Origin: Pseudomonadota bacterium
GTDB lineage: Bacteria; Pseudomonadota; Gammaproteobacteria; Burkholderiales; JABEVD01
DNA length: 64,000 nucleotides
NCBI GenBank assembly: GCA_021835845.1
Contig: JAKBJU010000004.1
Coordinates: 1 to 64,000 of the forward strand
Direction of reading: 5' to 3'
Below the pieces are notes generated by a model, which saw only the letters and a list, made by a program, of their open reading frames with translations, searched no databases and was not told where the DNA came from. The first letter of the stretch is position 1; each line of letters starts with the position of its first letter. This document shows positions 8,901 to 32,050 of the stretch, one piece after another. The position numbers and the translations under genes were made by a program.

Positions 8901-10295
8901 TCAATCGACTCCCCATCCCCCGCCGATCGCCTTGATCAGCGTGACACAGGCCGTCATTCTCCGGCCTGTCAGGTCCATCTCCACCTTTTCTGAGGCGAGT
9001 TCGCTTGCCTGGGCCGTAATGACATTGAGATAACTGACCGTCCCTGCCCGGTACTGGTTGATCGCCACATCGAGGGATTTCTTCGCAAAATCGGCGGACG
9101 CCCGGTCCGCCTTTGCTTCCCCCGCCAGGATATGCTGGGCGGCGAGATTGTCCTCGACTTCCTGGAAGCCGGAAAGCACGGTCTGCCTGTAGTTTGCGAC
9201 CGCGGCATCGTAAGCGGCTATGGCCGAATTCGTCTGGGCCCGGGTCAGCCCTCCGTTGAACAGGGTCTGGGCGAGGGCCGGCCCCAGCGACCATGTTCTC
9301 ATCGGAGCGGTGACCCAGCTCGCGAAGCTCGTGCTCTGGTAGCCTGCCGTGGGCGAAATGGACAGACTGGGAAAGAATGCCGATTTCGCCACCCCTATCT
9401 GCGCATTCGCCGCCGCGACAAGGCGCTCGGATTCGGCGATGTCCGGTCTGCGCTGCAGCAGCTGGGAAGGAATGCCGACCGGAATTTCAGGAATGCGATA
9501 AGTCATCTTGACCGGCTTGATCGAGAATTCGGCAGGCGCCTTTCCGAGCAGGGCGGCGATGGCATGCTCGTACTGCGCCCGCGCCAGACGAAGGTCTATG
9601 GCCTGGGATCGTGCCGATTCCAGCTGGGTTTGGGCCTGATCGACGCTGGCGCTGGAAGCATAGCCTGCATGGTACTGATTCTTGACGATCCGCAGATAAT
9701 GCCCGTAGTTTTCGGTTACCCTGTCGAGCAGGGCGATATCGTCATCGCTCACTCTCAGGAGGAAATAGTCCTGTGCCAGCGTTGCCCTGGTGCTGAGCCG
9801 CACCGATTCGAGATTTTTCCCGCTCGCCTCGGCATTCGCAGTGCCGGCCTCTATGGATCGCCTGATGCCCCCCCAGAGATCCGGCTCCCACGATGCATTC
9901 AGCCCCATGGCATAAAGGGTGCGCGTGCTGCCCGAAATGGACTGGGTCGGGTTCGACAGCGGCACCAGGGCGGAATACTGCGACCTCGTGCCCTGCACGT
10001 TGGCATTCAGGGTCGGGTAAAGCGCCGCCCTGGCGGCATCGGCATTGGCGAGCGCCTGACGATATTGGGCCTCGGCGGCGCGAATATTCTGATTCGAAAT
10101 ATTCACCTGCTCCTCCAGCCCATTGAGCACGGGATCCTGGAAGGTTTCCCACCATTTTCCCCTGGGCACGCTGTCTCCGGGATTCGCGCTCGCCCATTCC
10201 TTGTAAGCGGCTGGCGCATGCATCTTGGGGCGAACGTAATCCGGACCGACCGTGCAGCCAGCCAGAAGTGCGCAAAACAGCAAACCGTATCTCAT
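8901..10295 (-). CDS. Outer-membrane efflux factor (NodT/OprM family) of the mdtABC-like operon
   Basis: 464 residues. The start at 10295 gives the lipoprotein leader [14 protein letters not shown] with lipobox LAGC (C14) followed by TVGPDYVRPK; the longer frame to 10337 adds only an unlikely extension. The ATG overlaps the upstream permease stop (TCAT on the plus strand, 10292-10295). Duplicated helical halves (LLQRRPDIAESERLVAAANA and the C-terminal ITAQASELASEKV region) fit the TolC/OprM fold. E. coli mdtABC has an MFS gene and a two-component system downstream; here an outer-membrane channel takes that place. Confidence 0.92.
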   Translation of the reverse strand: MRYGLLFCALLAGCTVGPDYVRPKMHAPAAYKEWASANPGDSVPRGKWWETFQDPVLNGLEEQVNISNQNIRAAEAQYRQALANADAARAALYPTLNANVQGTRSQYSALVPLSNPTQSISGSTRTLYAMGLNASWEPDLWGGIRRSIEAGTANAEASGKNLESVRLSTRATLAQDYFLLRVSDDDIALLDRVTENYGHYLRIVKNQYHAGYASSASVDQAQTQLESARSQAIDLRLARAQYEHAIAALLGKAPAEFSIKPVKMTYRIPEIPVGIPSQLLQRRPDIAESERLVAAANAQIGVAKSAFFPSLSISPTAGYQSTSFASWVTAPMRTWSLGPALAQTLFNGGLTRAQTNSAIAAYDAAVANYRQTVLSGFQEVEDNLAAQHILAGEAKADRASADFAKKSLDVAINQYRAGTVSYLNVITAQASELASEKVEMDLTGRRMTACVTLIKAIGGGWGVD

Positions 10296-13200
10296 GCCGC
10301 ATCTCCCAGAATTGGTTTTTTCCCTGCCCTTGACCATTTCAACCTGAGCCGGTCGAGGTAAAGATAGATCACCGGGACGGTATAAAGGGTAAGCAGCTGG
10401 CTCACCAGCAGGCCGCCGACGATCGCGATGCCCAGCGGCCTGCGCAGTTCGGAACCCTCCCCCGAAACCAGCGCGAGGGGAAGCGCGCCCAGCAGGGCTG
10501 CCGCCGTGGTCATCATGATGGGCCTGAATCTCAGCACCGCAGCATGATGGATGGCCTCCTCGGTATTCATCCCCTCCCTTTCGGCAGCGAGCGCAAAATC
10601 GATCATCATGATCGCATTTTTCTTGACTATGCCTATCAGCAGGAACACGCCTATCAGGGTGATCACGGTGAACTGGATCTTGAAGGCCAGGATCGCCAGC
10701 AGCGCACCCACCCCCGCAGAGGGAAGCGTGGAAAGAATGGTCAGGGGATGCATATAGCTTTCATAGAGCATGCCGAGCACGATGTAAATTGCCAGTATGG
10801 CAGCCAGTATCAGCCAGATCTGGTTGGACAGGGAGCTCTGGAAAGCTTTCGCCGTGCTCTGGAAGCCGCCATGGATCGAAACCGGCACCCGAAGCTCGGT
10901 CATGGTATCGCCTATGATTCTGACGGCATCGCTCAACGATTCGCTTTCCGGGAGATTGAAGGAAACCGTACTCGCCACGAAAGGCCCCTGGTGATTGACC
11001 GCGAGGGATGTCATCTTGGTCTCGAAGCGGCTGATCGCCGGCAGCGGCACCTCCTGCCCTGTCGCGCTCGTCACGTAGACATCCTTCAGCGATTCGGGAT
11101 TCTGCCAGTATTTCGGGGCAGCTTCCAGCACGACAAAGTACTGGTTGAGCTGAGAATAGATGACCGAAACCAGCCGCTGCCCGAAGGCATCCTGAAGCGC
11201 GGCATCGATCAGCGCAGGAGTCACACCGAGTCGGGCCGCAGTCTGTCGATCGATCAGCAGCCGGGTTTCCAGCCCCCTGTCCTGCTGGTCGGTATTCACA
11301 TCCAGCAGCTCCTGGCGTCGGCTCAGGGCGCGCTCTATCCTGGGTGTCCATGCAGCGAGTTCTCCCAGGTCATCTCCCTGAAGCGTGTACTGATACTGGG
11401 AATTGCTGGGCCGCCCCCCTATCCGGATATCCTGAATGGACTGGAGATAGAGGCGCGCTCCGGGTTCCCTGGCGAGCTTCCCCCTCAGCCTCGCGATGAC
11501 TTCATCGGCATTGATTCTGCGGACGCTGACAGGTTTCAGCACGATGAACATGAAGCCGGAATTGATCTGGCCGCCCCCGGTGAACCCGACAACGTGCTGG
11601 ACGGCGGGATCCTTGCGCACGATCTCGACGAAGTCGGCGAGCTTGTTGCGCATCGCCTGGAAGGAGATGCTCTGGTCGGCCTGGATCGAACCGATGAGTT
11701 TGCCGGTGTCCTGCTGCGGAAAGAACCCCTTGGGCACGATCGCATAAAGATAGACATTTAGGCCTATGGTCGCGAAAAGCACGGCAAGCACTATTCCGGG
11801 GCGGGAAAGCGCCAGTCCGAGGCTTGCCCGGTAACGCGAAATGAGCCAGTCGAACGCCTTCCCGCTGAATCTCGTCACCCTCCCGGGCTTTCTTGCCGAT
11901 TCCGGAACGGCGAGTCTCGCAGCCATGGCAGGCGTGATGGTCAGCGAAACCAGCAGGGACACGAGGATGGCGATCGAGAGCGTCACTGAAAACTCGCGGA
12001 AAAGGCGCCCGATGATGCCGCCCATCAGCAAAATCGGAATGAATACCGCGATCAGGGAAAGACTCATGGAAAGCACTGTGAAACCGACTTCCCTTGCGCC
12101 AATCAGGGCGGCCTCGAAAGGCGGCTTGCCGGAATCGACATGACGGGATATGTTTTCCAGAACCACGATGGCATCGTCGACCACGAAACCAGTTGCGATG
12201 ATCAATGCCATGAGGGAGAGATTGTCGAGGCTGTAGCCCATGAGATACATGAAGGCGAATGTGGCAATCAGCGAGATCGGGACGGCGACGGCCGGAATCA
12301 GGGTGGTTCTCGCATCCCTTAGAAAAAGGAAAACAACCAGCACCACCAGCAGCACGGAGATGGAAAGCGTCAATTCCATGTCGTGCAGGGATGAGCGGAT
12401 GGTCGGGGTGCGATCCATCACGATGTTCAGGTTGATGGCGGCAGGAATGGCGGCTCTCAGGGTCGGGAGCATGGCTCTCACCAGATCCACTGTTTCGATG
12501 ATGTTGGCGCCGGGCTGCCGGCTGACAATGACGAGCACGGCAGGCTTGCCGTCCGCGATGCCGGCATTCCTCAGGTCCTGAACGCTGTCGTCCACCTGCG
12601 CCAGATCGGAAAGCCTGACCGGCATGTTGTTGCGATAGGAAACTATCAGGGGCAGGTACTCTCCGGCCTTTTTCATCTGGTCGTTTGCCTGGATCTGCCA
12701 GTAGCGTCCCCCTTCCTCGAGGTTGCCCTTGGGCCGATTGATGTTGCTTGAAGCAATCGCCGTCCTCAGGCTCTCGAATCCTATGCCGTACTTGTTGAGC
12801 GCATCGGGATTGACCTCGACCCTCACCGCAGGCAGCGAACTGCCGCCCACCGTGACCTGCCCGACGCCCTTGATCTGGGAAAGCTTCTGGGCCAGCAGCG
12901 TGGAAGCCGCATCGTACATCTGCCCTCGGTTCAGGGTTTCCGAAGTCAGGGAAAGAATCATGATCGGGGCATCAGCCGGATTCACCTTGCGGTAGGTCGG
13001 GTTGGAAGGCAGATTGGGCGGAAGCAGGGCGCGAGCCGCATTGATCGCCGCCTCGACATCCCTTGCCGCCCCGTCGATGTTCCTGTCCAGATCGAATTGC
13101 AGCGTGATTCGGGTCGTCCCGAGCGTGCTGGAAGAAGTCATCTCGTTCACGCTCGCGATGTGACCGAGCTCCCGCTCCAGCGGCATGGCCACGGAAGTCG

Positions 13201-13378
13201 CCATGGTTTCCGGACTCGCACCGGGAAGCGTTGAAAACACCGTAATAGTCGGGAAGTCGACCTGGGGAAGCGGCGAAACGGGAAGCAGGCGAAAAGCGAC
13301 CAGCCCTGCAAAGACCAGCCCCAAACCGATCAGCGTGGTCGCCACCGGGCGGCGGATAAAAACCGAGGAAAAGCTCAC
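10292..13378 (-). CDS. mdtC: RND efflux permease, MdtC-like
   Basis: 1028 residues if translation starts at the GTG whose first base is 13378 ([16 protein letters not shown]), which overlaps the stop of the upstream permease by 4 bases. The frame stays open to 13606 but that part only shadows the neighbour. Typical HAE-1 permease layout, with the proton-relay pair D401-D402 in [15 protein letters not shown]. It pairs with the MdtB-like protein to form a heterotrimeric pump, as known for E. coli MdtBC. Known MdtABC substrates include bile salts and novobiocin; the substrate here is unproven. Confidence 0.9.
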
Positions 13379-16300
13379 GCGCGGCCCCTCAGCCGCAGGA
13401 ATTTCCGCGACAGCCTGTTCATGGCAAGATAAATGACCGGCGTGGTGTAAAGCGTGAGCACCTGGCTCACCATCAATCCGCCGACCATGGCGACCCCCAG
13501 GGGATGCCGCAGCTCGGCCCCGATGCCGCCCCCCAGCATCAGGGGAAGCGCGCTCAGCAAGGCGGCTAGCGTCGTCATCAATATCGGGCGAAAGCGCAGC
13601 AGGCATGCCTGGTGGATGGCTTCCCTGGGTGATTTCCCTTCGCTGCGCTCGGCTTCCAGCGCGAAATCGATCATCATGATCGCGTTCTTCTTGACTATGC
13701 CGATCAGCAGCACTATGCCGATGATGCCGATGACGCCAAGGTCGATCCGGGAAAACTCAAGCGCGAGCAGCGCGCCCACCCCTGCAGAAGGCAAGGTGGA
13801 CAGGATGGTGACGGGATGGATGAAGCTCTCGTATAGGATGCCGAGCACGATGTACATGGTGACGATCGCCGCGAAAAGCAGGAAGGCCTCGTTGCCGAGG
13901 GAGGCTCTGAAGGCGAGCGCCGCGCCCTGGTAGCGGGTCTGCATGCCGGCGGGGATTTCCGCTTCCCGCTCGGCAGACTCGATGGAGTTCACCGCTTCCC
14001 CGAGGGATGCGCCCGGCGCGAGATCGAAGGAGAGATTGACTGAAGGGAACTGCCCTTCGTGGTTGATGGAAAGGGAGGCCGGCTTCTCTGCGATTTTCGC
14101 CAGCATGGCAAGCGGCACCTGCTTTCCGGAAGCGGAACTCACATAAATATGGCTCAGGGCTTCCGGCCCGAGCCGGTATCTGGGATCGACTTCGAGCACC
14201 ACGCGGTACTGGTTGGCCTGGGTGAAGATGGTCGAAACCAGCCGCTGGCCGAAAGCATCGTACAGCGCGCTGTCGATCGCGGCAACCGTGACGCCCAGCT
14301 CCCCTGCAGTATCCCGGTTGATCGAAATGTAGGTCTGCAGCGCATTGTCCTGGAGGTCGCTCGACACGTTGCGCAATGCCGGACTCGCATTCAGCCGTGC
14401 AACCAGCTTCGGAACGAATTCGGCCAGTTCCCCGGAATCGGCGTCTTCCAGGCTGAACTGGTACTGTCCCCTGCCCACCCTGTCCTCTATGGTGAGATCC
14501 TGAACCGGCTGCAAGAACAGGCTGACTCCCTGCACGCGCCTCACCCTGGCATTGAGCCTGTCGATGATTTCGGTGGCGCTCGCCTTCCTTTCCTCCAGGG
14601 GCTTGAGATTGATGAGAAACCTGCCCCTGTTGAGCGTATCGTTCTCGCCGTCCACCCCGATGAAGGACGAAAGGCTTTTCACTGCCGGATCCTGGAGCAG
14701 GATGTCCGCGAGCGATTCCTGAAGCTTCGCCATGGCAGGAAAGGATACGGTCTGCGGCGCTTCCGATATTCCCCGTATCACGCCCGTATCCTGAATCGGG
14801 AAGAATCCCTTCGGAATGAACACATACAGCATCACGGAAAGCAGCAGGGTTCCCGCGGCAACGAGCAATGTCCGCCCCTGACGGTCGAGCACCCAGTTCA
14901 GGCTGTCGCCATAATGCGCGATCAGCTTCGGGATGAATCCGCCCGGGCTTTCGCGGGATGCTCCGCGCAGCAGCTTGGCGCACATCATGGGAGTCAGCGT
15001 CAGGGAAACGAAAGCGGAAATCAGGATGGCAACGGCCAGGGTGATGGAGAACTCCCTGAAAAGACGACCCACCACATCGCCCATGAAAAGCAGCGGAATC
15101 AGCACGGCAATCAGGGAGAATGTCAGGGAGATGATGGTGAATCCGATCTGCTTCGCCCCTTTCAGCGCGGCATCGAGGGGATTGTATCCTTCCTCGACGT
15201 AGCGGCTGATGTTCTCGATCACGACGATCGCATCGTCCACCACGAACCCCGTCGCAATGGTGAGCGACATCAGGGTCAGATTGTTGATGCTGAATCCTGC
15301 AAGATACATGATGCCGAACGTGCCGATCAGCGAGATGGGCACTGCAACGCTGGGGATGATGGTTGCCGGGACGTTGCGCAGAAAGACGAATATGACCATG
15401 ATCACGAGCGCGATGGCGAGCACCAGTTCGAAGCGGGTGTCGCTGACCGAGGCCCTGATGGTCGTGGTGCGGTCGGTCAGGACGGCCACGTCAATCGACG
15501 CCGGGAGCCCTGCCTGAAGCTGGGGCAGCAGGCGCTTGATGTTGTCGACGACCTGGATGACATTGGCTCCAGGCTGGCGCTGGATATTCAGTATCACGCC
15601 CGGCGTCCGGCCCGACCATGCCGCAAGCCGGGTATTTTCAGCCGCATCGGCCACTTCTGCGATATCCGACAGGAAAACCGGCGCTCCATTCCTGTAGGCG
15701 ATCACTACGGAGGCATAATCCTTCGCCGAACGCAGCTGGTCGTTGGCATCGATTGCGTAGGATCGGGTGGGGCCGTCGAAACTTCCCTTGGGCTGATTGA
15801 CGTTGTTCGCGGCGATAGCCGTTCTAACATCGTCGAAGCCGATGCCGTAGGAAGCCAGCACATCGGGATTCAGCCTGATCCTCACCGCAGGGCGCTGCCC
15901 GCCGCTGATGCTCACGAGTCCCACTCCAGGCAACTGGGATATTTTCTGCGCCAGCCTGGTGTCCGCATAATCTTCAACGCGGGATACGGGAAGGGTTCTG
16001 GAAGTCAGCGCCAGGGTCAGGATGGGTGCATCTGCCGGGTTGATCTTGTTGTATATGGGCGGATTGGGCAAATCAGCCGGCAGGAAGGTCGTTGACGCAT
16101 TGATCCCTTCCTGGACTTCCTGCTCGGCCACATCCAGGCCGAGTCCGAGATTGAACTGGAGAGTGACGACCGATGCGCCGCCCGAACTGCTGGAAGTCAT
16201 CTGGTCGAGGCCGGGCATCTGCCCGAACTGCCGCTCGAGCGGAGCGGTCACGCTTGATGCCATCACATCCGGGCTTGCGCCGGGATAGAGCGTCACCACC

Positions 16301-16437
16301 TGGATCGTCGGATAATCGACCTGGGGAAGCGCCGAGAGGGGAAGCAGCCTGTAAGCCAGGATTCCCGTCAGCAGTATCGCCGCCATCAGCAGTGAGGTGG
16401 CGACAGGCCTCAGTATGAAAATGCGCGAAGGGTTCAT
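13375..16437 (-). CDS. mdtB: RND efflux permease, MdtB-like
   Basis: 1020 residues beginning [21 protein letters not shown]. It has the standard RND pattern of one N-terminal helix, two large periplasmic loops and two helix blocks, with aspartates D401-D402 in [15 protein letters not shown]. It overlaps the adaptor upstream by 4 bases and the MdtC-like gene downstream by 4 bases. Two consecutive, clearly related but different permeases behind one adaptor is the hallmark of the MdtABC arrangement. Confidence 0.9.
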
Positions 16438-17585
16438 GAACCGGAAGGCTTGGAAGCGGTGCCGTGCTTCCCATTTCCGGAAAATTCGACCCTAGCCCCG
16501 GACCTGAGCTTGTCCGCCCCGTCCACCACGACGGTTTCTCCAGAGGAAAGCCCGCTCTCGACGGAAGCCGTTTCGCCATCGACCGGCCCGACTCGAACCG
16601 GCCTGAGCGAGACCGTACTATCCTTCCCCACCACGTAGACGAACGGCCCCTGCACGCCCCTTTGAATCGCGGCCGAAGGCACCAGGACCATGTTCTTTCG
16701 CGCATCGGCGAGCAGCCTGACGTTCACGAACTGGTTGGGAAAGAGCCGATTGTCGCTGTTGGGAAACTCCGCGCGGAGTTTCACCATCCCCGTCGTGGTA
16801 TCGATCTGGTTGTCAACGGTGAGCAGCTTGCCTTCGGCCAGTTTCGCCGTCCAGTCGCGGTCATAGGCTTCCACCTTGAGCGGGGAGCCGCCGGCTATTT
16901 TTTCGAGCACAAGGGGCAGGCTGTCTTCCGGCAGGGTGAACACCACGGTAATCGGGCTGAGCTGGGTGATGACGACCAATCCATTGGTGTCTGTCGCATG
17001 GATGATGTTCCCGATATCGACCTGCCTGAGTCCCAGGCGGCCGTCTATGGGGGAGTCGATGTGGGCATAGATCATCTGAAGCCTGTCATTCTCGAGAACG
17101 CCCTCATCCGCCCTGACCGCACCCTTGTATTGGTTGACGAGCGCCTTTTGCGTGTCGAGCTGCTGGGTGGCGATCGAATCCTGGGCCACCAGCCCGCTGT
17201 AGCGCGCCAGATCGAGCTCGGCATCCTTCAGGAGCGCTCTGTCTTTCATCAATTGCCCTTCGGCCTGAACGATCTGCGCATGAAATGGGCGCGGGTCGAT
17301 CAGGGCGAGGGGATCCCCCTTCTTGACGATCTGCCCTTCCCTGAAATCGATTTTCATGAGTTCGCCGTCTACGCGAGACTTCACCGTGACGGTCGTCACC
17401 GGAATCACCGAACCCAGTCCTTTCAGGATGACATCGATGCTGCCGGTTCTTGCCGTTGCCGCCACCACCCGCATTGCATGTCCCTGTGGCCCGGCCTTGG
17501 GCGCGGCATGACGATGCATGAACCAGTAGCCCGAAACGGCCAGGATAATCGCGGAAGCTGCCAACCCGTAATATTGCTTCTTCAT
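16434..17585 (-). CDS. mdtA: RND efflux periplasmic adaptor, MdtA-like
   Basis: 383 residues. The start at 17585 ([20 protein letters not shown]) places a membrane anchor or signal at residues 7-22; the longer frame to 17696 adds a low-complexity leader with no support. Lipoyl halves, a short helical hairpin ([20 protein letters not shown]) and the barrel region [18 protein letters not shown], well conserved in MdtA proteins, are all present. It is first in the adaptor-MdtB-MdtC-channel operon. The spacing to the next gene upstream is 58 bases, so the promoter is close to 17600. Confidence 0.9.
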
Positions 17586-17643: not shown

Positions 17644-18279
17644 TTACCTGCCGCCGACGGAATAGTCGGCGCCGGCCATGTTGCGGGGAAGCGCATTCCA
17701 TGATGCGATGACCGGAACGCCGGGGTGATGGGGGTCGAAGGAAAGAATGCTGAGCGATGCCGTGCCGAGCGAAAAATGCCTTGCCTCGGCCACTTCCAGG
17801 CCGATCCAGCGCACGGCTATGGCGCTGCCGATCTGGCCATGCGCAAAAAGCGCGATATTTCCCTCTCTCGCTTTCAGCCGGGCAATGAGACGATCCGCGC
17901 GGGCAGAGACCTGTTCCGGCATTTCGCCGCCTGGGCAGCCATCCCGGTAAACGACCCAGTCCGGAAACTGCCTGCGTATCTCCGCAGAGCGTCGCCCTTC
18001 GTAATCGCCGTAATCCCATTCGGCAAGCTCGGGCGAAATTTCCGGATCTTTGCCCAGGCCGGCCAGTTCGCAGGTTTGCAGCGCGCGCTTGAGCGGGCTG
18101 CTCATCACATGCGCAAACTGGATCTCCCTGAGGTGCCCGGCCAGTTCGCGCGCCTCGTCCTCGCCATGCGGCGTCAGCGGAATGTCGGTGCGGCCGGTGT
18201 GCTGGCCGGTGAGCGACCACGCGGTTTCTCCATGCCTGACCAGAAACAGGCGTAGCGGGGTGGCCGGGATCGATTTCAT
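17644..18279 (-). CDS. Histidine phosphatase family protein (phosphoglycerate mutase-like)
   Basis: 211 residues with the catalytic RHG motif near the start ([10 protein letters not shown]15-H16-G17), a [16 protein letters not shown] segment, the catalytic glutamate region ([11 protein letters not shown]) and the second histidine in FAHGQIGS. The start at 18279 was chosen because the next gene upstream stops there with a 4-base ATGA overlap. The family includes alpha-ribazole phosphatases, sugar-phosphate phosphatases and phosphoglycerate mutases; the substrate cannot be assigned. Tight coupling to the TPR/ATP-grasp gene suggests they work on one pathway. Confidence 0.85.
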
Positions 18280-20084
18280 GATATGCTCGGTTGCTGGTGA
18301 AGTGCTGGAAGCAGAGTCTGCACATTTCCCAGGCGTTCCGCAAACATTCGCCTCGCCGCCATCAATGCATTCGTGATGGCAGGGCGCCTGTAATCCCATG
18401 TCTTTTCGCTCGTCGGGGCAACGATGCTCATGGTTGCATTGGCTTCATACAGCAGCAATCTGCCATCGCGGTCGATGCCGAAATCCATGCCGCAATAATC
18501 CAGACCCAGGCTCCGGGCGACCCCTTCCAGCGCCGACACCTTGGCCGCGCCGAGATAGGCCGTGAAATCGTTCAGGAAGGCCTCTTCCTCCTTCCGGCAG
18601 GATGCATTTTCCGCCATGTCCGAACTGAAATAATGGACCTTCCATTGCCTGGAGGCAGCCATGTGCACCGGATAGAGCGCACCGTCGATCGACATGACCC
18701 TGAATTTTCTGAACAGGCCATCTTCCTGGCGCGATTCCAGATAGGTCATGACGAACAATTCCTCCCCGGGCAGTTCGCTCAGGGCAGGCTTGAGTGCATC
18801 ATGATCGTCCACCCGCAAGAAATAATTGCCGCCCTGGAACCCGGGAGAACGCAGCAGCAGGGGAAATGCCAGGTCCGATTCCGAGAGCAATGCCGCCTTC
18901 GAAAGCAAGCGAATGTCCGGCGCGATCACGCCGGGAAGCTTTGCCAGCCTCGCGGCATTATCCAGCCGCCCGGTCTTGAGCACCGCACCGGGAGGATTGA
19001 TCAAGGGGGCGGCGCTTCTCCCGGCAAGCATGCAGGCAATTTCAAGGCCTTCGCGGCAAAGATCGGCATCCCCGATCGCATTGAAAAGCAGGCTGTGCTC
19101 CGGCAGCGCCTGCAGGGGCTCGAAGCATTCCACTGCAACGATGGTGGCTTCGAACAATCGCTGATCGACCAGGAATCGCCAGGGCACATTCCCCTCACGG
19201 GAAGACGCCAGGATCAGCAGCGAGGCCGGCTTCCCCGCGCCGCGACAGGGCACGAACAACAACGGCTTGCCGCCAAATCCCCTGATTCGGTGGTAATCCG
19301 CCTTGTCCGGGTTTCCCTGCCGGTGATAAGCCGAAGCAAGCCCCTGGTGCGCTTCCGGAAATTCGGGATCAATGTCCAGCGCCGTCCTGAAATGGGTTTG
19401 TGCAGCATCGGGATTTCCCATGTGCAACAGCACGTTTCCGAGATTGACATGGGCAGATGCCTCGCCCGGATGATAAGTGGCTGCGGCTGTGTAGGCAGTA
19501 TGGGCGGCGGAGACATATCCGGTCTCGAAAAGAAGATTGCCCAGATTGACCCATGCCCCGAAATGAGTAGGCATGATCCTGATCGCTTCCAGAAATGCCG
19601 ACTTGGCCTTTTCGAGGTCGTCCTCGCCCCCCGTTCCGGCAAGGAAATTGGCCAGATTGAACCGCATTTCTGCGGATCCTCCATCCAGATCGACAGCCTG
19701 GCAGTGATATTTCCGGGCTTCTTCCATCCTCCCCTGCTTCTCGAGCAGCAGGGCAAGATTGGCGCAAGCCGCCGCGCTTTCAGGAGCAAGGCCCAGGGCG
19801 CGCCTGAAGCACTGTTCTGCCTGGTCATGGCGCCCCAGGTCGGAATACAGCGCGCCCAGGTTGAGCAGGGGCTGGCACGCCTGCGAATCGAGCTCGATCG
19901 CCTTCAGCCAGAAGGTCTCGGCCTGCCTGGCGTTACCGAGCCTGCTCGCGCACATGCCTGCAAGGTCGCACCACCTGGCATCGCCCGGCTCGCCTTCCAG
20001 ACAGATCCTGTCCAGCGCCGACTGGAACTGACCTTCGGCCATCAGGCGGGCTACAAGTTGCTCGGATATGCCGGACTGCCTCAT
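18276..20084 (-). CDS. TPR repeat protein fused to an ATP-grasp-like domain
   Basis: 602 residues in two parts. Residues about 10-275 hold roughly seven tetratricopeptide repeats, for example ACQPLLNLGALYSDLGRHDQ and AWVNLGNLLFETGYVSAAH. From about 280 the protein changes to an alpha/beta region with FPLLLRSPGFQGGNYFLRV, a segment FRKFRVMSIDGALYPVHMA near 456, and a late GMDFGIDRDGRLLLYEANATM (about 528-548), which resembles the metal-binding end of ATP-grasp ligases. A carboxylate-amine or peptide ligase activity would follow from that fold; the substrate is unknown. It overlaps the phosphatase gene downstream. Confidence is high for the TPR part and moderate for ATP-grasp. Confidence 0.8.
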   Translation of the reverse strand: MRQSGISEQLVARLMAEGQFQSALDRICLEGEPGDARWCDLAGMCASRLGNARQAETFWLKAIELDSQACQPLLNLGALYSDLGRHDQAEQCFRRALGLAPESAAACANLALLLEKQGRMEEARKYHCQAVDLDGGSAEMRFNLANFLAGTGGEDDLEKAKSAFLEAIRIMPTHFGAWVNLGNLLFETGYVSAAHTAYTAAATYHPGEASAHVNLGNVLLHMGNPDAAQTHFRTALDIDPEFPEAHQGLASAYHRQGNPDKADYHRIRGFGGKPLLFVPCRGAGKPASLLILASSREGNVPWRFLVDQRLFEATIVAVECFEPLQALPEHSLLFNAIGDADLCREGLEIACMLAGRSAAPLINPPGAVLKTGRLDNAARLAKLPGVIAPDIRLLSKAALLSESDLAFPLLLRSPGFQGGNYFLRVDDHDALKPALSELPGEELFVMTYLESRQEDGLFRKFRVMSIDGALYPVHMAASRQWKVHYFSSDMAENASCRKEEEAFLNDFTAYLGAAKVSALEGVARSLGLDYCGMDFGIDRDGRLLLYEANATMSIVAPTSEKTWDYRRPAITNALMAARRMFAERLGNVQTLLPALHQQPSIS

Positions 20085-20165
20085 GACAATTCATTGCCCC
20101 GTTTGATTGAACTGAACCGGGAATTCTAGCCTCTGGTTCGGTCAGCCCTGATTAGCTGAGCGTTT

Positions 20166-20186
20166 CAAATTGTAAGCAATTGTAAG
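20166..20186. repeat. Tandem CAAATTGTAAG/CAATTGTAAG direct repeat
   Basis: Two near-identical blocks (20166-20176 and 20177-20186) follow each other directly about 85 bases upstream of the TPR/ATP-grasp start. The second runs into the end of the truncated repeat element. Tandem AATTGTAAG blocks resemble response-regulator sites, but no regulator can be named. Confidence 0.35.
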
Positions 20187-20280: not shown

Positions 20281-21030
20281 TCACTGCTTACTGACAGGAA
20301 TATCGGTCTCTTGCACGGGAGCCGCAGCCAGGATCATGACAGTGACCCGCCTGTTCCTCGCCCTGCCTGCAGCCGTATCATTGGAATCTACCGGGTGATT
20401 TTCCGCATAGCCTTCCACCACCATGCGCGCAGGATCGATGCCGTTTGTGGCGAACAGCCTCACCACACTGCTCGCACGCGCCGAGGAGAGTTCCCAATTC
20501 GACGGAAAAGACGGAGTGCTGATCGGCGTGTCGTCGGTATAGCCCATAACCTTGATGTCATGATTGTCGTTTTTCAGCACTTGGGCGACCGCCTGGAGCG
20601 CCTTGACGGATTTCGGCTCGAGATCGGCCTCCCCTGACTTGAACAGCAGGCTCGCGTTGATCTCCACTGTCACACCGATATTGCTTTGCATGACCCTGAC
20701 CTTGCCGGCATTCACCAGCGGAGACATGACCGAAAGGATATTTTGCGCGATGCCCTGCATCTTTTCGCGGCGCTGCTCGGCCAGCAGGCTCTTCCCGGAA
20801 TCGGGCACAGGACGGGGCGGCAGCAGCCGACTCGACTTGGGGGGAGGAGCGGATGTCTTGTTGAGAAAAGCATCCGAAAGTGAAACGCCGAAAGTGCGAT
20901 ACTTCCCCTCATTGACGGAAGAAGTGGCATACATCACCACGAAGAAGGCAAAAAGCAGCGTGATGAAATCGGAGTACGAAATCATCCACCTTTCATGGTT
21001 GTCGCGATCCTCCTCCCGCTTTTTGCGCAC
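20281..21030 (-). CDS. motD: Flagellar stator protein MotB/MotD
   Basis: 249 residues. The GTG start at 21030 has AGGAGG just upstream; the open frame continues to 21345 but that part only shadows motC. The N-terminus is strongly charged, then NHERWMISYSDFITLLFAFFVVMYA gives the single transmembrane helix with the proton-carrying aspartate in SYSDF. The C-terminal OmpA-like peptidoglycan-binding domain contains NWELSSARASSVVRLF and GYAENHPVDSND. Together with MotC it forms the ion channel that drives flagellar rotation. It is 8 bases from motC. Sequence style favours MotD over MotB. Confidence 0.88.
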   Translation of the reverse strand: MRKKREEDRDNHERWMISYSDFITLLFAFFVVMYATSSVNEGKYRTFGVSLSDAFLNKTSAPPPKSSRLLPPRPVPDSGKSLLAEQRREKMQGIAQNILSVMSPLVNAGKVRVMQSNIGVTVEINASLLFKSGEADLEPKSVKALQAVAQVLKNDNHDIKVMGYTDDTPISTPSFPSNWELSSARASSVVRLFATNGIDPARMVVEGYAENHPVDSNDTAAGRARNRRVTVMILAAAPVQETDIPVSKQ

Positions 21031-21038
21031 GGCCCCTC

Positions 21039-21785
21039 CTAGACGACATAACCCAGCAGTTTTTCCTCGATGATGCGCGGATTCTCCCCCTGCGCGATGG
21101 CAACCAGACCGTCGATCAGCATTTCCCGCCAGATGACCTGCTGGTTGATCAGCGTCTTGAGCTTGTTTGCAATGGGCAGGAATACCAGATTGGCAAGCCC
21201 CACGCCGTATATGGTCGCAACGAAGGCAACTGCAATCCCCCCGCCGAGCTTGGCCGGATTGGACAGGTTTTCCATGACATGAATGAGACCGAGAACCGCC
21301 CCCAGAATCCCGATCGTCGGAGCATATCCGCCAGCCGCCTCCCACACTCTGGCGGACTGACGCCCGAAATCCTCGAAGGCATTGATGTCAACTTCCAGCA
21401 TTTCCCGCATCTTTTCCGGAGGCGTGCCGTCCACGAGAAGGTGCATCCCCTTCCTGACGAAAGGATCCTTGATCTCTTCCACGCCGGCATCCAGGATCAG
21501 AAGCCCTTCCTTGCGAACCGCGCTGCTCCATACCGTGATCTGGCGAATCAGCGATTCCGAAGCATAATTGGGGGGGATGAAAATCCACTCAAGCATCCTG
21601 ATTCCGCCCCAGAATACCCTGATCGGCGTCTGCAGCATCACCGCTCCGACAGTCCCTCCGGCCACGATCACGAAGGCGGTCACCTGAAGCAGCGAATCGA
21701 CATGGCCGCCTTCCAGGATATGCCCTCCGACGATCCCGGAGAGTGCCAGAATCAGTCCGATTGCGCTGTTGAAATCGAATCTCAT
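21039..21785 (-). CDS. motC: Flagellar stator protein MotA/MotC
   Basis: 248 residues with four predicted membrane helices (about 7-22, 33-50, 150-170 and 183-203). It contains the family's cytoplasmic loop and the conserved GGYAPTIGILGAVLGLIHVMENL segment with prolines near the channel. With MotD it makes the stator that couples ion flow to torque. The gene lies 3 bases downstream of fliA. The placement fleN/flhG-fliA-motC-motD recalls Pseudomonas, where chemotaxis genes lie between; none are present here. Confidence 0.9.
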   Translation of the reverse strand: MRFDFNSAIGLILALSGIVGGHILEGGHVDSLLQVTAFVIVAGGTVGAVMLQTPIRVFWGGIRMLEWIFIPPNYASESLIRQITVWSSAVRKEGLLILDAGVEEIKDPFVRKGMHLLVDGTPPEKMREMLEVDINAFEDFGRQSARVWEAAGGYAPTIGILGAVLGLIHVMENLSNPAKLGGGIAVAFVATIYGVGLANLVFLPIANKLKTLINQQVIWREMLIDGLVAIAQGENPRIIEEKLLGYVV

Positions 21786-21788
21786 GAG

Positions 21789-22502
21789 CTAGCGCATCCC
21801 CTTGAGCTTGCTGCGCAGCCTTGCGATTGCCTGACTGTGCAGCTGACACACCCGCGATTCCCCAACGCCGAGAACTTCGCCGATTTCCTTGAGATTGAGT
21901 TCCTCGTCGTAATACAGCGCCATCACCAGCTTTTCCCTCTCCGGCAGATTGGCTATCGCCTTGGTGAGCTCGCTGTGGAAGCTCTCGCCCATAAGTCTTG
22001 CCAGGGGCTCGGATGTGCTGTCCCCGCAATGACGATCGAGAAAATGATCTTCCCCCTCTTCGTCATAATCGTTGTAATAGACCAATTGATTGCCGCGGGC
22101 CTCCAGAAGAAGCTTGTGGTATTCTTCGAGCGGGATGCCCAATTCATCCGCCACTTCACGCTCGCTTACCGTTCGCCCCAGACGCTGCTCGGTTGCATGG
22201 ATGGCATCTTCAACGCGCCTCGAATTTCTTCGCACCTCGCGAGGAAACCAGTCGCTCGAACGCAGCCCGTCCAGCATCGCACCCCTGATCCTCTGGGAAG
22301 CATAGGTCTCGAACTGCGCCCCCTGGGCGGCATCATAGCGCTGAATGGCATCCAGAAGCCCCAGCATGCCGGTCTGAACCAGATCTTCCACCTGCACGTT
22401 GGCAGGCAGCCTCGCCATCATGTGGTGTGCGATTCGTTTCACCAGCGGCGCATACTGGGCGATTCTGCCATCCAGATCGGTCAGTCCCGAAGGGGTATAC
22501 AT
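21789..22502 (-). CDS. fliA: RNA polymerase sigma factor for flagellar operons (sigma-28)
   Basis: 237 residues with sigma region 2 (APLVKRIAHHMMARLPANVQVEDLVQTGMLGLLDAI, FETYASQRIRGAMLDGLRSSDW), region 3 (RRVEDAIHATEQRLGRTVSEREVADELG) and region 4 helix-turn-helix (LNLKEIGEVLGVGESRVCQLHSQAIARLR). It directs late flagellar and motility gene transcription and is normally held by the anti-sigma factor FlgM, which is not in this window. It sits 32 bases downstream of flhG. Confidence 0.95.
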   Translation of the reverse strand: MYTPSGLTDLDGRIAQYAPLVKRIAHHMMARLPANVQVEDLVQTGMLGLLDAIQRYDAAQGAQFETYASQRIRGAMLDGLRSSDWFPREVRRNSRRVEDAIHATEQRLGRTVSEREVADELGIPLEEYHKLLLEARGNQLVYYNDYDEEGEDHFLDRHCGDSTSEPLARLMGESFHSELTKAIANLPEREKLVMALYYDEELNLKEIGEVLGVGESRVCQLHSQAIARLRSKLKGMR

Positions 22503-22534
22503 TTGGAATCAGGGGCAAAAAAACATATTATGCC

Positions 22535-23413
22535 CTAAATACTGGCGGGGCTTAACCTGTCGCTTCGTAACAGATGCTGCAGAAATTCGCTCAGGCTCAT
22601 GTCCGTGTGCTGCGGGCAGGGCCAGCGAACGACCGAATCGGCAATCTGCCTGAAGCTCGAACTGGCTGCCGAAAGCGGGAATGCCCCGATCACGGAGCCT
22701 TTCAGGCGGGATGCCTGCCGCAGCGATTCATCTAGCGGAACCTGTCCCATGAAATCGAGCGAAATGGCGAGAAAGCGCCTTGCGACCTTCGACATGCTGT
22801 CGAACACTGCGCGCGCCTCTTCGTCACTCCTAACCTTGTTGACCAGTATCCTGAAGTGGCGCTTGCCGTAATGCCGGTTCATCGTCTTGATCAGCGCGTA
22901 AGCATCGGTGATCGAATCTCCCTCCGCTGACACCACGACGACAATCTCCTGGGCGGGCAAACTCAGGGAAAGCAGGTGGCTGGCGCTGCCAGCCGCCGTA
23001 TCGACCAGAACGACATCCACTGGCCTTGCGATATTGCTCATGCAGGCAACCAGCCTCTCCTGACTCAATTCGTCCAGCCCGGCCAGCGCCTGCATGCCTT
23101 GAGCCGCCTGCAATATGGCAATGCCGTCCGGTCCGGGAATCATGACTTCCTCGAAACTCATGCCGCATCTTGCCACATCCAGAAGATCGTGGGACTTCCT
23201 GATGCCAAGCAGGGAGGTCAGGTTGCCCTTGCCGGGATTCTCGTCAAGGATCATGACATTCTTTCCGGCGCCGGACAGGGCTGTCGCGAGATTGAAAACG
23301 GTTGTCGTCTTTCCCACTCCCTTGCCCGAGCTTGTCAGGGTGAGTATCCTGACGAAATCCCGGCCCAGGAGCCTGCGCAACCCTTCCGCCTGGTCGATCA
23401 CGAATTGCCCCAT
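22535..23413 (-). CDS. flhG: Flagellar number regulator FlhG/FleN (MinD-like ATPase)
   Basis: 292 residues with the deviant Walker A SGKGVGKTT (29-37), the DENPGKGN region and the VLVDTAAG Walker B-type strand. FlhG family proteins control flagellar number and placement, usually by stimulating FlhF GTPase and restraining the master regulator. The start lies directly at the flhF stop with no gap, which fits the flhF-flhG coupling seen in polar flagellates. A C-terminal amphipathic stretch (MSLSEFLQHLLRSDRL) could act as a membrane-targeting helix. Confidence 0.92.
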   Translation of the reverse strand: MGQFVIDQAEGLRRLLGRDFVRILTLTSSGKGVGKTTTVFNLATALSGAGKNVMILDENPGKGNLTSLLGIRKSHDLLDVARCGMSFEEVMIPGPDGIAILQAAQGMQALAGLDELSQERLVACMSNIARPVDVVLVDTAAGSASHLLSLSLPAQEIVVVVSAEGDSITDAYALIKTMNRHYGKRHFRILVNKVRSDEEARAVFDSMSKVARRFLAISLDFMGQVPLDESLRQASRLKGSVIGAFPLSAASSSFRQIADSVVRWPCPQHTDMSLSEFLQHLLRSDRLSPASI

Positions 23414-24541
23414 TTATACCTCGAAGCCACCCGTCATCATCAATGGGTATTCGACGTCCTTGAGCGCATGCGGAGAATCTTCCTTGACGGCCCGGAATGC
23501 ACGGTCGATCAAGTATTTCGAATTCGCCGCATGCAGATCTTCAGGAACGCGCTGGCCGTTTGCGATGAAATGCAACACAAGCCTGTTGCGCATCACCACA
23601 TCGAGCGCCGAGCCCATGCCGATCGCCTCATCCACTTTGGTCAGGATGCATCCGCTCAAGTCCCTTCCCCTGTAAGCCCTCACCACATCATCCAGAGTCT
23701 CTCCGCTGGAAGTGGCATTAAGCAGCAGCACCCTTTCGACATCGGCTTCGCAGCCGGAAAGCATCGCGACCTGATCGAGCACTTTTTGATCCTTCTGGCT
23801 CATGCCTATGGTGTCGATCAGCACCAGATGCTTGTCCTTCAATTCATGCAGGATAAGATTCAATTCTGCCGCATCCTTGACGGCATGCACCGGCACGCCG
23901 AGTATTCTGCCGTATATCCTGAGCTGTTCGTAGGCGCCGATACGGTAGCTATCCGTGGTCACCAGGGCGAGCTTGCCTGCGCCATGGCGAACCACGCAGC
24001 GCGCTGCAAGCTTTGCGGTGGTCGTGGTCTTGCCGACTCCCGTTGGCCCCACCAGGGCGAAAACTCCGCCCCTGTCGACAATGTCCGCTTCCGGATTCGC
24101 CACGGCGAGATTCCTCACAAGCGCGGTCTTGATCCACTCGATCGCCTCCCTCTCCGATTTCAGGGGCGGCATCTTGTCCATCATCTGCCTCGAAAGCCTC
24201 GGGCTGAAGCCCGCACCCAAAACCTTTCGCATCGCCGAAACCTTCACGGGATCGCGCCTTTCCATATCCCCCCAGGCAAACCCGGCGAGCTGCTCTTCCA
24301 GCATGCTGCGCATCGTCCTGATTTCGTCCATGATTTCGGCCATTTCAGCCCTGTCGATCTGGGGCTCTTCGGCCTGAACGGGTTGGCTCAGAACTGCCGC
24401 ATCATCGCTTGCAAGCGCCGTGATCTCCACCCCTCCCGCAACGGGCCGGTTGGAAAGAATGAGCGCATCCGCCCCGAGCGCTTCCTTGACCTTGCGCAAT
24501 GCCTCGCCGGCCGTCTTTCCGCTGAACTTCCTGACTCTCAT
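23414..24541 (-). CDS. flhF: Flagellar biosynthesis SRP-like GTPase FlhF
   Basis: 375 residues: an N-terminal B domain starting MRVRKFSGKTAGEALRKVKEALG, a middle helical N domain, then the SRP-type GTPase G domain with GPTGVGKTTTTAKLA (P-loop about 165-172), DSYRIGAYEQLRIY and DTIGMSQKD. FlhF marks the pole and recruits early flagellar parts. It overlaps flhA by 4 bases and abuts flhG. Confidence 0.95.
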   Translation of the reverse strand: MRVRKFSGKTAGEALRKVKEALGADALILSNRPVAGGVEITALASDDAAVLSQPVQAEEPQIDRAEMAEIMDEIRTMRSMLEEQLAGFAWGDMERRDPVKVSAMRKVLGAGFSPRLSRQMMDKMPPLKSEREAIEWIKTALVRNLAVANPEADIVDRGGVFALVGPTGVGKTTTTAKLAARCVVRHGAGKLALVTTDSYRIGAYEQLRIYGRILGVPVHAVKDAAELNLILHELKDKHLVLIDTIGMSQKDQKVLDQVAMLSGCEADVERVLLLNATSSGETLDDVVRAYRGRDLSGCILTKVDEAIGMGSALDVVMRNRLVLHFIANGQRVPEDLHAANSKYLIDRAFRAVKEDSPHALKDVEYPLMMTGGFEV

Positions 24542-26613
24542 GCCCTACCTCCCAATACTGCTGTAACTTTGATCGATCTTGTGTCCGGCACTTCCGTGTG
24601 CGCCAATACCTTCAACTGGGGAATGGCTCTCCTCAGGAAGCGGGAAAGCAGCGTCCTGAGCTGGGATGGCACCAGCAAGACCGGGGGAATTCCCATGTTT
24701 TCCTGATTCTGCGTAGCCACATTGGCCTCCCTGAGCAAGGTATCCGCAAGCCCGGGTTCGATGGCCGCCTCCGCACCTCCGGATTGCATCGCCTGCATCA
24801 GAAGCCGCTCAAGCTTGGGATCGATGGTGATCACCTGAAGTTCGCTTGAAGCCGGGGCAATCTGCTGGACGATGGAACGCGAAAGCCTTGCCCGAACCAG
24901 AGCGGTCAGCTCTTCGGGATCCTGGGTTTTGGCGGCATGGTCGATCATGGCTTCGAGTATGGAACGGATGTCGCGTATCGGAATGCTCTCGTCGAGCAAA
25001 TTCTGCAGCACTTTCTGTACCACGGAGAGCGAAACGAGCTTGGGCGTGAGATCCTCGACAAGCTTGGGCAGCTCGCGCGAAGCATGGTCGAGCAGCTTCT
25101 GCAATTCCTCCCGGCCCAGAAGTTCGGAGGAATGCTTCTGGATCAGGTGATTGAGGTGCGTGGCCACCACCGTGCTCGCATCGACCACCGTATAGCCCTG
25201 AATCTGCGCCTGCTCGCGAAGCCCTGCCTCCACCCAGACTGCCGGCAGTCCGAAAGCGGGATCCTGAGTCACCGTGCCCGGCAAGCTTCCCGTTACCCTG
25301 CCGGGATTGATTGCAAGAAACATCCCGGGATACACGTCGCCCGTACCGACTGTCACCCCTTTCAGGCTGATCTTGTAGGCATTGGGCTTCAATTCAAGGT
25401 TGTCGCGGATGTGCACGGAAGGCGGCAAGAACCCGATGTCCTGGGCGAATTTCTTCCTTATCCCCTTGATCCTTTTGAGAAGATCGCCATCCTGAGCCTT
25501 ATCCACCAAGGATATCAGCCTGTACCCCACTTCCAATCCAAGCACATCGACCAGCGCGACATCATCCCAGCTCACTTCCTGGGCTTCCGCAGCCGGCGCT
25601 TCGACCGGAGGCGGCGCCTTTGCGACCCTGGCCAGCCTGCTGCGGAAATAGGCCAGGGCTCCGAGCAAGATCGAAAACAGGATGAAAGGAAAATGGGGCA
25701 TGCCAGGAATGATCCCGAGCCCGCCGATGATGGCCGCCGCAATCAGAATGATCTGGGGATTGGTGAAAAGCTGCGCGAGGAACTGCTGGCCGATATTCTC
25801 GTCCGAACCGACTCTTGCCACCATCAGACCAGCAGCGGTCGAAATCATCAAGGAAGGGATCTGCGCCACGAGGCCGTCGCCGATGGTCAGGAGCGTATAG
25901 GTTTTGGCAGCGACCCCGATATCCAGGCCATGCTGCAGCACGCCGACTATCAATCCCCCGACGATGTTGATCAGCATGACCATTACCCCTGCCATCGCAT
26001 CCCTGACCACGAACGAACCCGCGCCATCCATCGCGCCGAAAAAGTCTGCTTCCTGCGAAAGCTCGGCCCGCCGCCTCTTCGCTTCATCCTCGCCGATCAA
26101 CCCGGAATTGAGATCGGCATCGATCGCCATCTGCTTGCCAGGCATTGCATCCAGCGTGAACCTCGCCCCGACCTGGGCGATCCGATGCGCGCCGTGCGTG
26201 ACCACGTAGAAGTTGATGATCACCAGGATGACGAAGACCACGATCCCGATGGTGTAATTGCCCCCCACCAGAAAATGACCGAATGCGCCGATCACCCTGC
26301 CCGCAGCATCCTCGCCCTCGTGTCCGCGCATCAGCACGACCCGGGCCGATGCCACATTGAGGGACAGGCGCAGCAAGGTCGTGATCAGAATGACCGCGGG
26401 AAAGGAAGAGAATTCCAGCGGCTTGACGGTATTGATGCTCAGCATCAGCACGATCACGGAAAGCGATATGTTGAAAGTGAACAGGATGTCGAGCAGGAAG
26501 GGGGGCAAGGGCAGGACCATCATCGACAGGATCATGACGATCAGAAGAGGCCCGGCAATGTTTTTCAGGCTGGCAGCATTTTTCAGCGAAAGCAGATTGG
26601 CCAGGCCGTTCAT
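24538..26613 (-). CDS. flhA: Flagellar type III export gate component FlhA
   Basis: 691 residues: eight membrane helices in the first about 310 residues, with the conserved cytoplasmic loop (GKQMAIDADLNSGLIGEDEAKRRR), then a linker and the cytoplasmic substrate- and chaperone-docking domain. Normal length for the family. It is the large proton-linked gate of the export apparatus together with FlhB. It overlaps flhB and flhF by 4 bases each. Confidence 0.96.
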   Translation of the reverse strand: MNGLANLLSLKNAASLKNIAGPLLIVMILSMMVLPLPPFLLDILFTFNISLSVIVLMLSINTVKPLEFSSFPAVILITTLLRLSLNVASARVVLMRGHEGEDAAGRVIGAFGHFLVGGNYTIGIVVFVILVIINFYVVTHGAHRIAQVGARFTLDAMPGKQMAIDADLNSGLIGEDEAKRRRAELSQEADFFGAMDGAGSFVVRDAMAGVMVMLINIVGGLIVGVLQHGLDIGVAAKTYTLLTIGDGLVAQIPSLMISTAAGLMVARVGSDENIGQQFLAQLFTNPQIILIAAAIIGGLGIIPGMPHFPFILFSILLGALAYFRSRLARVAKAPPPVEAPAAEAQEVSWDDVALVDVLGLEVGYRLISLVDKAQDGDLLKRIKGIRKKFAQDIGFLPPSVHIRDNLELKPNAYKISLKGVTVGTGDVYPGMFLAINPGRVTGSLPGTVTQDPAFGLPAVWVEAGLREQAQIQGYTVVDASTVVATHLNHLIQKHSSELLGREELQKLLDHASRELPKLVEDLTPKLVSLSVVQKVLQNLLDESIPIRDIRSILEAMIDHAAKTQDPEELTALVRARLSRSIVQQIAPASSELQVITIDPKLERLLMQAMQSGGAEAAIEPGLADTLLREANVATQNQENMGIPPVLLVPSQLRTLLSRFLRRAIPQLKVLAHTEVPDTRSIKVTAVLGGRA

Positions 26614-27734
26614 TCAGACTCTCCCGGATCGAGTTCCCGGGGAACCGGCAGATTCACCGGCAGCTGCGCATTCATTCCCCGCTTCAACTGATAAACGTAG
26701 GCGAGCACTTCAGCAACTGCGGCATACAGCGCTTCCGGAATTTCATCCCCAACCTCGGCATTGAAATAAAGCGCCCGCGCAAGGGGAGGGGCTTCCAGAA
26801 TGGGGATCGAGTTCTCTTCGGCGATTTCCCTGATGCGGCCGGCGAGCAGATGGGCGCCGCTTGCAACAATCTTGGGGGCCCCCATGTTTTCCTGGTAGCG
26901 CAAAGCTACGGCATAATGGGTCGGATTGGTCACAACCACGTCGGCCTTGGGGATCTCCGCCATCATGCGGCGACGGGCCATTTCGCGCTGCATCTGCCTG
27001 ATCTTACCCTTGACCTCCGGACTGCCGTTGTCCTCCTTGTTCTCCTGCTTCACCTCGTCCTTGGTCATCTTGAGCTTGTCTTTATAGTCCCATTTCTGGT
27101 ACGGAATATCGACCGCAACAATCAGCAGCATGGATCCGACAATCTCGAGAAAACTGACTGCCATCGTGTGCCCCAGATGAGCGAGCCCCATCCTGAGCGG
27201 CTCCTTTGCCAGATCGAAAAAAACGCCCCGGTTGTGCCAGATCACGAAGGTGGCCATGGTGCCGACCAGGATGGCTTTCAGGGTCGCCTTCCCCAGCTCG
27301 ACGAAGCCTTTCAGGGAAAACATCCGGGCGAGCCCGGCCAGCGGATTCAAGGCTCCGAAATTGAGCGTCAGCCGCTTCAATGAAAATACCCAGCCGCCCA
27401 CAAGAGAAGGGGACCACAGGATGACGATCACCAGAAGCAGCATGAAGGGAAGAAACTCGAGGAGGGTGTTCGAGGAGAGGACGTAGAATCTGCGGATCAC
27501 GAGAAACGGATCGTCGAAAGCCAGCGCCCGTTCGAAAACCAGACCCTGGGTCATCATGTTCGACAGGTATCCCATGAGATGGGAGCCCATCGCCCAGAGC
27601 CCCGCACCCGAGGCAATCAGGAGTGCAAAAGTCGCCAATTCCCTGGACTGGGGAACCTGCCCTTCTTCCTGACGCGCTTTTTCGAGCCGTCGATACGAAG
27701 GGGCTTCTGTTCGCTGGTCTTTGTCTTCAGCCAT
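26610..27734 (-). CDS. flhB: Flagellar type III export switch protein FlhB
   Basis: 374 residues with four membrane helices in the first about 210 residues and a cytoplasmic domain carrying the autocleavage motif NPTH (N270-P271-T272-H273). Cleavage there switches export from rod/hook to filament substrates. It is the first gene of the flhB-flhA-flhF-flhG-fliA-motC-motD run; the start has GGGTAAAG just upstream. The promoter should lie in 27735-27837, which has no convincing sigma-54 or sigma-28 box. Confidence 0.95.
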   Translation of the reverse strand: MAEDKDQRTEAPSYRRLEKARQEEGQVPQSRELATFALLIASGAGLWAMGSHLMGYLSNMMTQGLVFERALAFDDPFLVIRRFYVLSSNTLLEFLPFMLLLVIVILWSPSLVGGWVFSLKRLTLNFGALNPLAGLARMFSLKGFVELGKATLKAILVGTMATFVIWHNRGVFFDLAKEPLRMGLAHLGHTMAVSFLEIVGSMLLIVAVDIPYQKWDYKDKLKMTKDEVKQENKEDNGSPEVKGKIRQMQREMARRRMMAEIPKADVVVTNPTHYAVALRYQENMGAPKIVASGAHLLAGRIREIAEENSIPILEAPPLARALYFNAEVGDEIPEALYAAVAEVLAYVYQLKRGMNAQLPVNLPVPRELDPGESE

Positions 27735-31147: not shown

Positions 31148-31455
31148 GGAATCACTGATTTATTCCTACGCGGGCGCGACGGTTGGCTTCGCGGGATGAG
31201 ATTCACGAAGGACGGCGCAGCGAATGGTCATTCCATTCGCAAGCCGCGCGACAAAGAATATCGCCCGCAAAGCCCCGTCCCTGAAGGGTTGCGTGCAAAT
31301 CGAGCGCTCGCTTTGGCGCGCGCCAGTGCATTGTAGACCCGGCTACAACCTGCGTCGCGCGTCCGGCGATCATCTCGATTTGGCCGTACCTCGAAACTAC
31401 GCTTCGCTTCGTTTCCCAGCAACGCGCACCACGGGGGAATAAATCAGTGGTTCCT
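31147..31455. mobile_element. MITE-like element, full copy B (309 bp, TA-flanked)
   Basis: The ends read AGGAATCACTGATTTATTCC and, on the other strand, AGGAACCACTGATTTATTCC, giving terminal inverted repeats of about 20 bases. TA lies just outside each end (31145-31146 and 31456-31457). The interior has no plausible transposase but keeps a small palindrome (31221-31239) and blocks shared with the copy at 51727-52035 in inverse orientation. Exact length equality (309 bp) with that copy supports a defined mobile unit. TA duplication suggests mobilisation by an IS630/Tc1-mariner-type transposase, which is inference. Confidence 0.88.
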
Positions 31456-32015: not shown

Positions 32016-32050
32016 GTTACCTGGACTCGAAAATTTGAAAATCGCTCATT

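Follow-up and report, generated by a model that had tools for sequence, protein, structure and literature searches.

What might a protein do that joins a TPR array to an ATP-grasp-like domain, is encoded next to a block of flagellar genes, and has a gene that overlaps that of a histidine phosphatase? Such a protein, which we call the ligase after its predicted activity, is encoded in the window (the whole 64,000-nucleotide stretch of DNA that was analysed). A sequence-only reading had described a 602-residue protein with about seven TPR units and an ATP-grasp-like end, and had suggested that it forms an uncharacterised modification or biosynthetic system together with the phosphatase. The open reading frame agreed with this description in position and length (Table 1). 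In the literature that we searched, we found no paper on the ligase family and no function shown for any of its members.

Table 1. Positions of the ligase gene, its domains and motifs, and neighbouring features in the window.
Feature	Position	Strand	Basis
RND permease (MdtB/MuxB family)	13375..16437	−	family match
RND adaptor (MdtA/MuxA family)	16434..17585	−	family match
Histidine phosphatase, 211 aa	17644..18279	−	His_Phos_1 E = 1e-49
TPR-ATP-grasp protein (ligase), 602 aa	18276..20084	−	ORF, Pfam, AlphaFold2
ATP-grasp region (predicted), residues 275–591	18312..19262	−	AlphaFold2 model and family profile
EAN motif (E547, N549)	18438..18446	−	homolog alignment
D534 codon	18483–18485	−	homolog alignment
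Eight TPR helix pairs, N-terminal, residues 8–270	19275..20063	−	Pfam and AlphaFold2
Perfect direct repeat TTACAATTGCTTACAATTTGAAACG = TTACAA-N4-TTACAATTTGAAACG, upstream of ligase	20161..20185	−	sequence
motD (MotB-type), last gene of flagellar block upstream of ligase	20281..21030	−	profile match
Flagellar genes motC, fliA, flhG, flhF, flhA, flhB	21039..27734	−	profile matches

Domain architecture and predicted catalytic residues

Pfam TPR models matched the protein with E values down to 2e-31, and a full-length AlphaFold2 model of the 602 residues (pLDDT 91.4, pTM 0.85) contained 16 helices at residues 8–270, followed by an alpha/beta domain at residues 275–591. Tandem TPR helix pairs are thus present in the ligase, as had been proposed, and their number is eight rather than about seven. 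When the C-terminal region was modelled alone (pLDDT 94.4, pTM 0.91), inspection by eye showed strands and helices in the sequence expected for an ATP-grasp domain. No Pfam or NCBIfam family matched this region above its curated cut-off; among the Pfam ATP-grasp families (YheCD, ST, R2K, and RimK), none reached the cut-off with the window protein, and the weak YheCD match (18.2 bits, cut-off 26.8) covered the C-terminal end. A profile of the family weakly matched RimK/LysX and carbamoyl-phosphate synthetase/biotin carboxylase chains, with the RimK/LysX-type chain 3vpd as the best solved-structure match (E 0.002), and a few family members matched Pfam CPSase_L_D2 (5e-7) or RimK (3e-4) by themselves. 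The sole PDB match of the single sequence, to a sugar kinase at E 0.42, was at chance level, and a likeness to sugar kinases was rejected. On the AlphaFold2 model and the sequence profile, the C-terminal domain is a confidently modelled domain of ATP-grasp type, and the protein is predicted to act as an ATP-dependent ligase. The ATP-grasp-like ending perceived earlier is therefore borne out by the model and the weak YheCD match.

Across 86 homologs, residues R373, R412, K460, R462, H474, D534, and E547 (full-protein numbering) were invariant. Position 549 is Asn in the clade of the window protein and mostly Asp in the other clade. E547 and N549, together with D534, are likely metal ligands, and the D...E-x-N pattern fits what would be expected of such ligands in ATP-grasp enzymes. 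By motif reading, R412, which belongs to an RP/RSP motif, would stand at the place of the usual Lys of the first nucleotide-binding strand. The structure prediction that the sequence-only reading had proposed as a check, and the alignment, thus showed an ATP-grasp-like fold with D534 and E547 kept, rather than an unrelated fold or a family that had lost its ligand residues.

Spread of the ligase family

A scan of ~85,000 species genomes gave at least 574 confirmed ligase loci, the best 80 of which came from Proteobacteria, Acidobacteriota, Eremiobacterota, and one MAG labelled Bacillota. The window's own genome encodes two ligase paralogs, on contigs C3 and C14. The ligase tree has two main clades. 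In clade one, the N-terminal part of the protein is short and the motif reads E-x-D; five of these proteins were tested for TPRs, two with weak matches and three with none, and some members of this clade may carry no recognisable TPRs. Clade two, which contains the window protein, has longer TPR arrays and an EANATM motif. Several window-clade genes (L045–L050, L065, L068, L069, and L072) lie directly downstream of aspS, in seven cases with a uvrA-like gene next on the opposite strand; this context is conserved and contains no decarboxylase or flagellar genes. One pattern scan found no viral relatives of the ligase, and a defence system was rejected as PADLOC gave only TPR matches.

The histidine phosphatase and the genes around the ligase

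The stop codon of the ligase and the start codon of the phosphatase overlap in an ATGA at 18279–18276, as the sequence-only reading had seen. The phosphatase has the RHG motif and second catalytic His of branch 1 of the histidine phosphatase superfamily; a longer, 251-aa ORF results from an upstream start inside the ligase gene. Among 116 ligase loci, the phosphatase gene accompanied the ligase in just two, the window and one sister locus (L008, in which the ligase gene is 88% identical). The phosphatases of these two loci are 96% identical, both keep the RHG motif and second His, and the ATGA overlap is present in both, features that would suit a functional pair in which a phospho-substrate made by one enzyme is released by the other. 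Such a pair is nonetheless very improbable, as it is confined to two close relatives and largely refuted by the neighbourhood survey. We therefore rejected the phosphatase as a conserved partner, contrary to the pairing first suggested, and its position next to the ligase is probably incidental.

Directly downstream of the phosphatase lies an MdtABC-type RND efflux operon with an outer-membrane component (8901–17585, minus strand). In the window and in its closest orthologs, L008 and L009, the ligase is the first gene of an apparent operon with this pump; in L009 it overlaps the RND adaptor gene directly, and in the window the adaptor is probably on the same transcript as the ligase. A perfect TTACAA-N4-TTACAA repeat precedes the ligase in these three loci, and no examined locus without one of these three ligase genes has it. 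From its shape, the repeat may be a response-regulator site. Scans for sigma-70 promoters and terminators gave nothing above chance.

Upstream, the ligase does adjoin a flagellar block (flhB-flhA-flhF-flhG-fliA-motC-motD), in which flhG matched only as a MinD-like ATPase and owes its name to gene order. No flagellar gene was found around the ligase on the short contigs of L008 and L009, and flagellar proximity in the window alone is therefore weak evidence. Elsewhere in the window, positions 31455–33154 (minus strand) encode EF-P and the arginine rhamnosyltransferase EarP.

A PLP decarboxylase often accompanies the ligase

We called genes of at least 60 aa by codon scoring and clustered the neighbours around 80 collection loci plus relatives. 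The stand-out neighbour was a PLP group-II decarboxylase. Its gene lies directly beside that of the ligase in 23 loci, among them one of the window's own genome; in six Acidobacteria genomes or MAGs, the two are fused and encode a decarboxylase-TPR-ligase protein. A second PLP-type enzyme, which matched no Pfam or NCBIfam model, was the next neighbour in 12 loci, and SerC took its place in six others. The neighbourhood survey suggested by the sequence-only reading thus did reveal partners, namely the decarboxylase and the second PLP enzyme or SerC rather than the phosphatase. Among 60 relatives, 16 genomes carried the ligase, including all 14 with the decarboxylase (Fisher < 1e-10); among 398 genomes of the phylum, the decarboxylase occurred in 22 of 31 ligase genomes (Fisher 4e-19). 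The window copy of the ligase has no decarboxylase neighbour. Both PLP enzymes of this genome are encoded on contig C3, where the decarboxylase adjoins the ligase paralog. The match of the decarboxylase to the MfnA model scored far under the cut-off.

The PLP-enzyme-like class without a Pfam or NCBIfam family (L006:7040–8389 and homologs) is operonic with the decarboxylase and ligase, and SerC stands in its stead at other loci. In one further locus (L201, genome G155), the neighbours of the decarboxylase and PLP enzyme include a DJ-1/PfpI protein and an ATP-grasp protein of 804 aa that is unrelated to the ligase; the ligase may have been displaced there.

Association with flagella

Ligase genes lie near flagellar genes in several gene orders. 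In all seven loci from genomes that are Bradyrhizobium-like by gene order, the ligase-decarboxylase genes sit between fliC/flbT and flgL/flgK/flgE. Elsewhere, the ligase operon follows fliD-fliT-fliS (L126), and the ligase gene lies near fliS and fliD (L095 and L103), near fliK and flhX (L143), near flgD/flgE (L079, L082, and L085), near flgE-like and flgK-like genes (L076), before flhB-flhA-flhF (L014), or, in the window, after motC-motD. Flagellar genes were present in 8 of 74 independent ligase contexts vs 1 of 40 random regions, a difference that was not significant (Fisher P 0.11); a binomial test of the 8 contexts gave P 5e-4 at an assumed rate of 2.5% and 0.03 at 5%. The other 66 contexts contained no flagellar gene of the reference set.

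For Bradyrhizobium, published gene order ruled out the lateral flagellar cluster as home of the operon. The subpolar cluster fits, since the seven genes that lie between fliC4 (bll5846) and the hook gene (bll5854) match the seven in L130, and we infer that the operon resides there. A text search of the literature for bll5848–bll5851 gave nothing. Between the PLP enzyme and a FlgL-like gene, these Bradyrhizobium-like loci also encode a short glycosyltransferase-like protein with a DADIGF motif (L130:9569–10348 and L131:3871–4647), which matched no Pfam family.

At the level of genomes, the association is stronger than that of gene placement: the ligase family occurs almost only in flagellated bacteria. 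When genomes were reached through their ligase loci, 40 of 42 encoded Flagellin_N. Flagellin was found in 6/6 ligase genomes vs 71/144 in Acidobacteriaceae, in 15/16 vs 28/44 among Burkholderiales relatives, and in 30/31 vs 299/367 in the phylum sample. A stratified test of these three groups, of which the phylum and relatives samples share some genomes, gave a combined odds ratio of 9.9 (one-sided P 1.3e-4). Seven of seven known carriers in Eremiobacterota were flagellated vs 61 of 149 genomes overall (hypergeometric ~0.0016). These P values are optimistic, because the genomes are related by descent. Ligase genomes G004 (of the window's genus), G460, and G468 had no flagellin match. The argument for a flagellar role is carried by the family-wide association.

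Proposed function and alternatives

We favor a reading, to which we assign a probability of roughly 40%, in which the protein is an amide-forming carboxylate-amine ligase of an unnamed ATP-grasp family that works with the flagellar apparatus, and in which the TPR arm binds a protein substrate or partner, most likely a flagellar one. From the partner genes, the amine in relatives would be made by the PLP decarboxylase encoded beside or fused to the ligase, from a precursor prepared by the second PLP enzyme or SerC; the window copy would use amine from the enzymes encoded on contig C3. ATP-grasp ligases generally use ATP to turn a carboxylate into an acyl phosphate, and this ligase would do the same. 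The TPR arm, by its fold and the precedent of FlmG, may dock a flagellar protein such as flagellin while it is still in the cytoplasm, ahead of its export, and an amide would be formed on that protein. The domain structure, by model and sequence, the kept catalytic residues, the coupling and fusion with the decarboxylase in relatives, and the statistical link to flagella are results; that this link reflects a function, exerted on a flagellar target, is our inference, and so are the nature of the amine and that of the carboxylate. The fuller proposal of an amide modification dedicated to the flagellum, in which the decarboxylase amine is put on carboxylates of flagellar proteins in Proteobacteria, Acidobacteriota, and Eremiobacterota, is somewhat unlikely in our estimate. 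The earlier idea of an uncharacterised system for modification or biosynthesis is plausible, and the phosphatase drops out of it as a partner.

The main rival, which we hold to be a tentative possibility, is that the ligase joins the decarboxylase-derived amine to an acid to give a soluble amide or dipeptide, that the TPRs serve just to hold several enzymes together in a complex, and that in the window's genus the product is exported by the MdtABC-type pump or made under the same stress as the pump. The decarboxylase-TPR-ligase fusions resemble a metabolic enzyme complex, the apparent operon with the RND adaptor stands behind a conserved repeat in the window, L008, and L009, and the one genome with an unrelated ATP-grasp protein near both PLP enzymes looks like a small-molecule pathway; however, production of a metabolite leaves unexplained both the tracking of flagella across three phyla and the placement beside filament genes. 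A flagellin glycan precursor could instead receive an amino-acyl or amide decoration, the ligase acting on a sugar-borne group and not on protein. The ATP-grasp protein SfmE in a Shewanella oneidensis flagellin modification operon (PMC3765264) and the DADIGF protein of the Bradyrhizobium-like loci would agree with this idea, but no nonulosonate or other sugar genes recurred in the neighbour clustering and the DADIGF protein belongs to no Pfam family, and we consider it improbable. Cyclisation of a ribosomal precursor peptide by a graspetide-type ligase would have precedent in an existing ATP-grasp class, the loci of which sometimes hold TPR proteins (PMC8939145). The same-strand ORFs in the gap upstream of the ligase are, however, just 22 and 32 aa long, apart from a 53-aa ORF that overlaps the ligase start, and the clustering, which covered genes of at least 60 aa, gave no small conserved neighbour, making this explanation highly unlikely.

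If flagellin is modified as our favored reading proposes, amidation-type chemistry would join glycosylation and methylation, the main modifications known in this field. Genes inside a Bradyrhizobium-type flagellar cluster would gain a role, in organisms amenable to culture and mutagenesis, and so might a PLP enzyme family that has no Pfam model.

Comparison with known systems

RimK glutamylates ribosomal protein S6, LysX acts in LysW-dependent lysine biosynthesis, and enzymes of this family take protein-borne carboxylates as substrates. The predicted ATP-grasp domain is common to these enzymes and the ligase, as indicated by the 3vpd match at E 0.002 and by the members that match Pfam RimK. 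The similarity is weak and partial, however, and the ligase differs in having R412 where many ATP-grasp enzymes have Lys, a TPR arm, and a decarboxylase partner. In methanofuran biosynthesis, an archaeal coenzyme pathway, the PLP decarboxylase MfnA supplies the amine to the ATP-grasp ligase MfnD, with which it is coupled. This system resembles that of the ligase in its combination of decarboxylase and ATP-grasp enzyme but is not known to include a TPR arm or any connection with flagella. Graspetide ligases share the ATP-grasp class and the formation of amides or esters on peptides, whereas their partners differ and no precursor peptide was seen here among called genes of at least 60 aa.

Two flagellin modification systems offer further parallels. 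In Shewanella oneidensis, the sfmABCDE operon for flagellin modification encodes the ATP-grasp protein SfmE (PMC3765264); by description, it has 412 aa and an ATP-grasp_4 domain, its neighbours are a methyltransferase and a protein resembling PseI, and that description, unlike ours of the ligase, mentions neither a TPR arm nor a decarboxylase. FlmG, a TPR-glycosyltransferase of Caulobacter, binds flagellins through its TPR region (PMC7591256). It is of about the same size as the ligase and likewise combines an N-terminal TPR region with a C-terminal modifying enzyme and a link to flagella, but its catalytic domain is a GT-B glycosyltransferase, whereas that of the ligase is ATP-grasp-like. By analogy only, the TPR arm of the ligase may be likened to the flagellin-binding region of FlmG.
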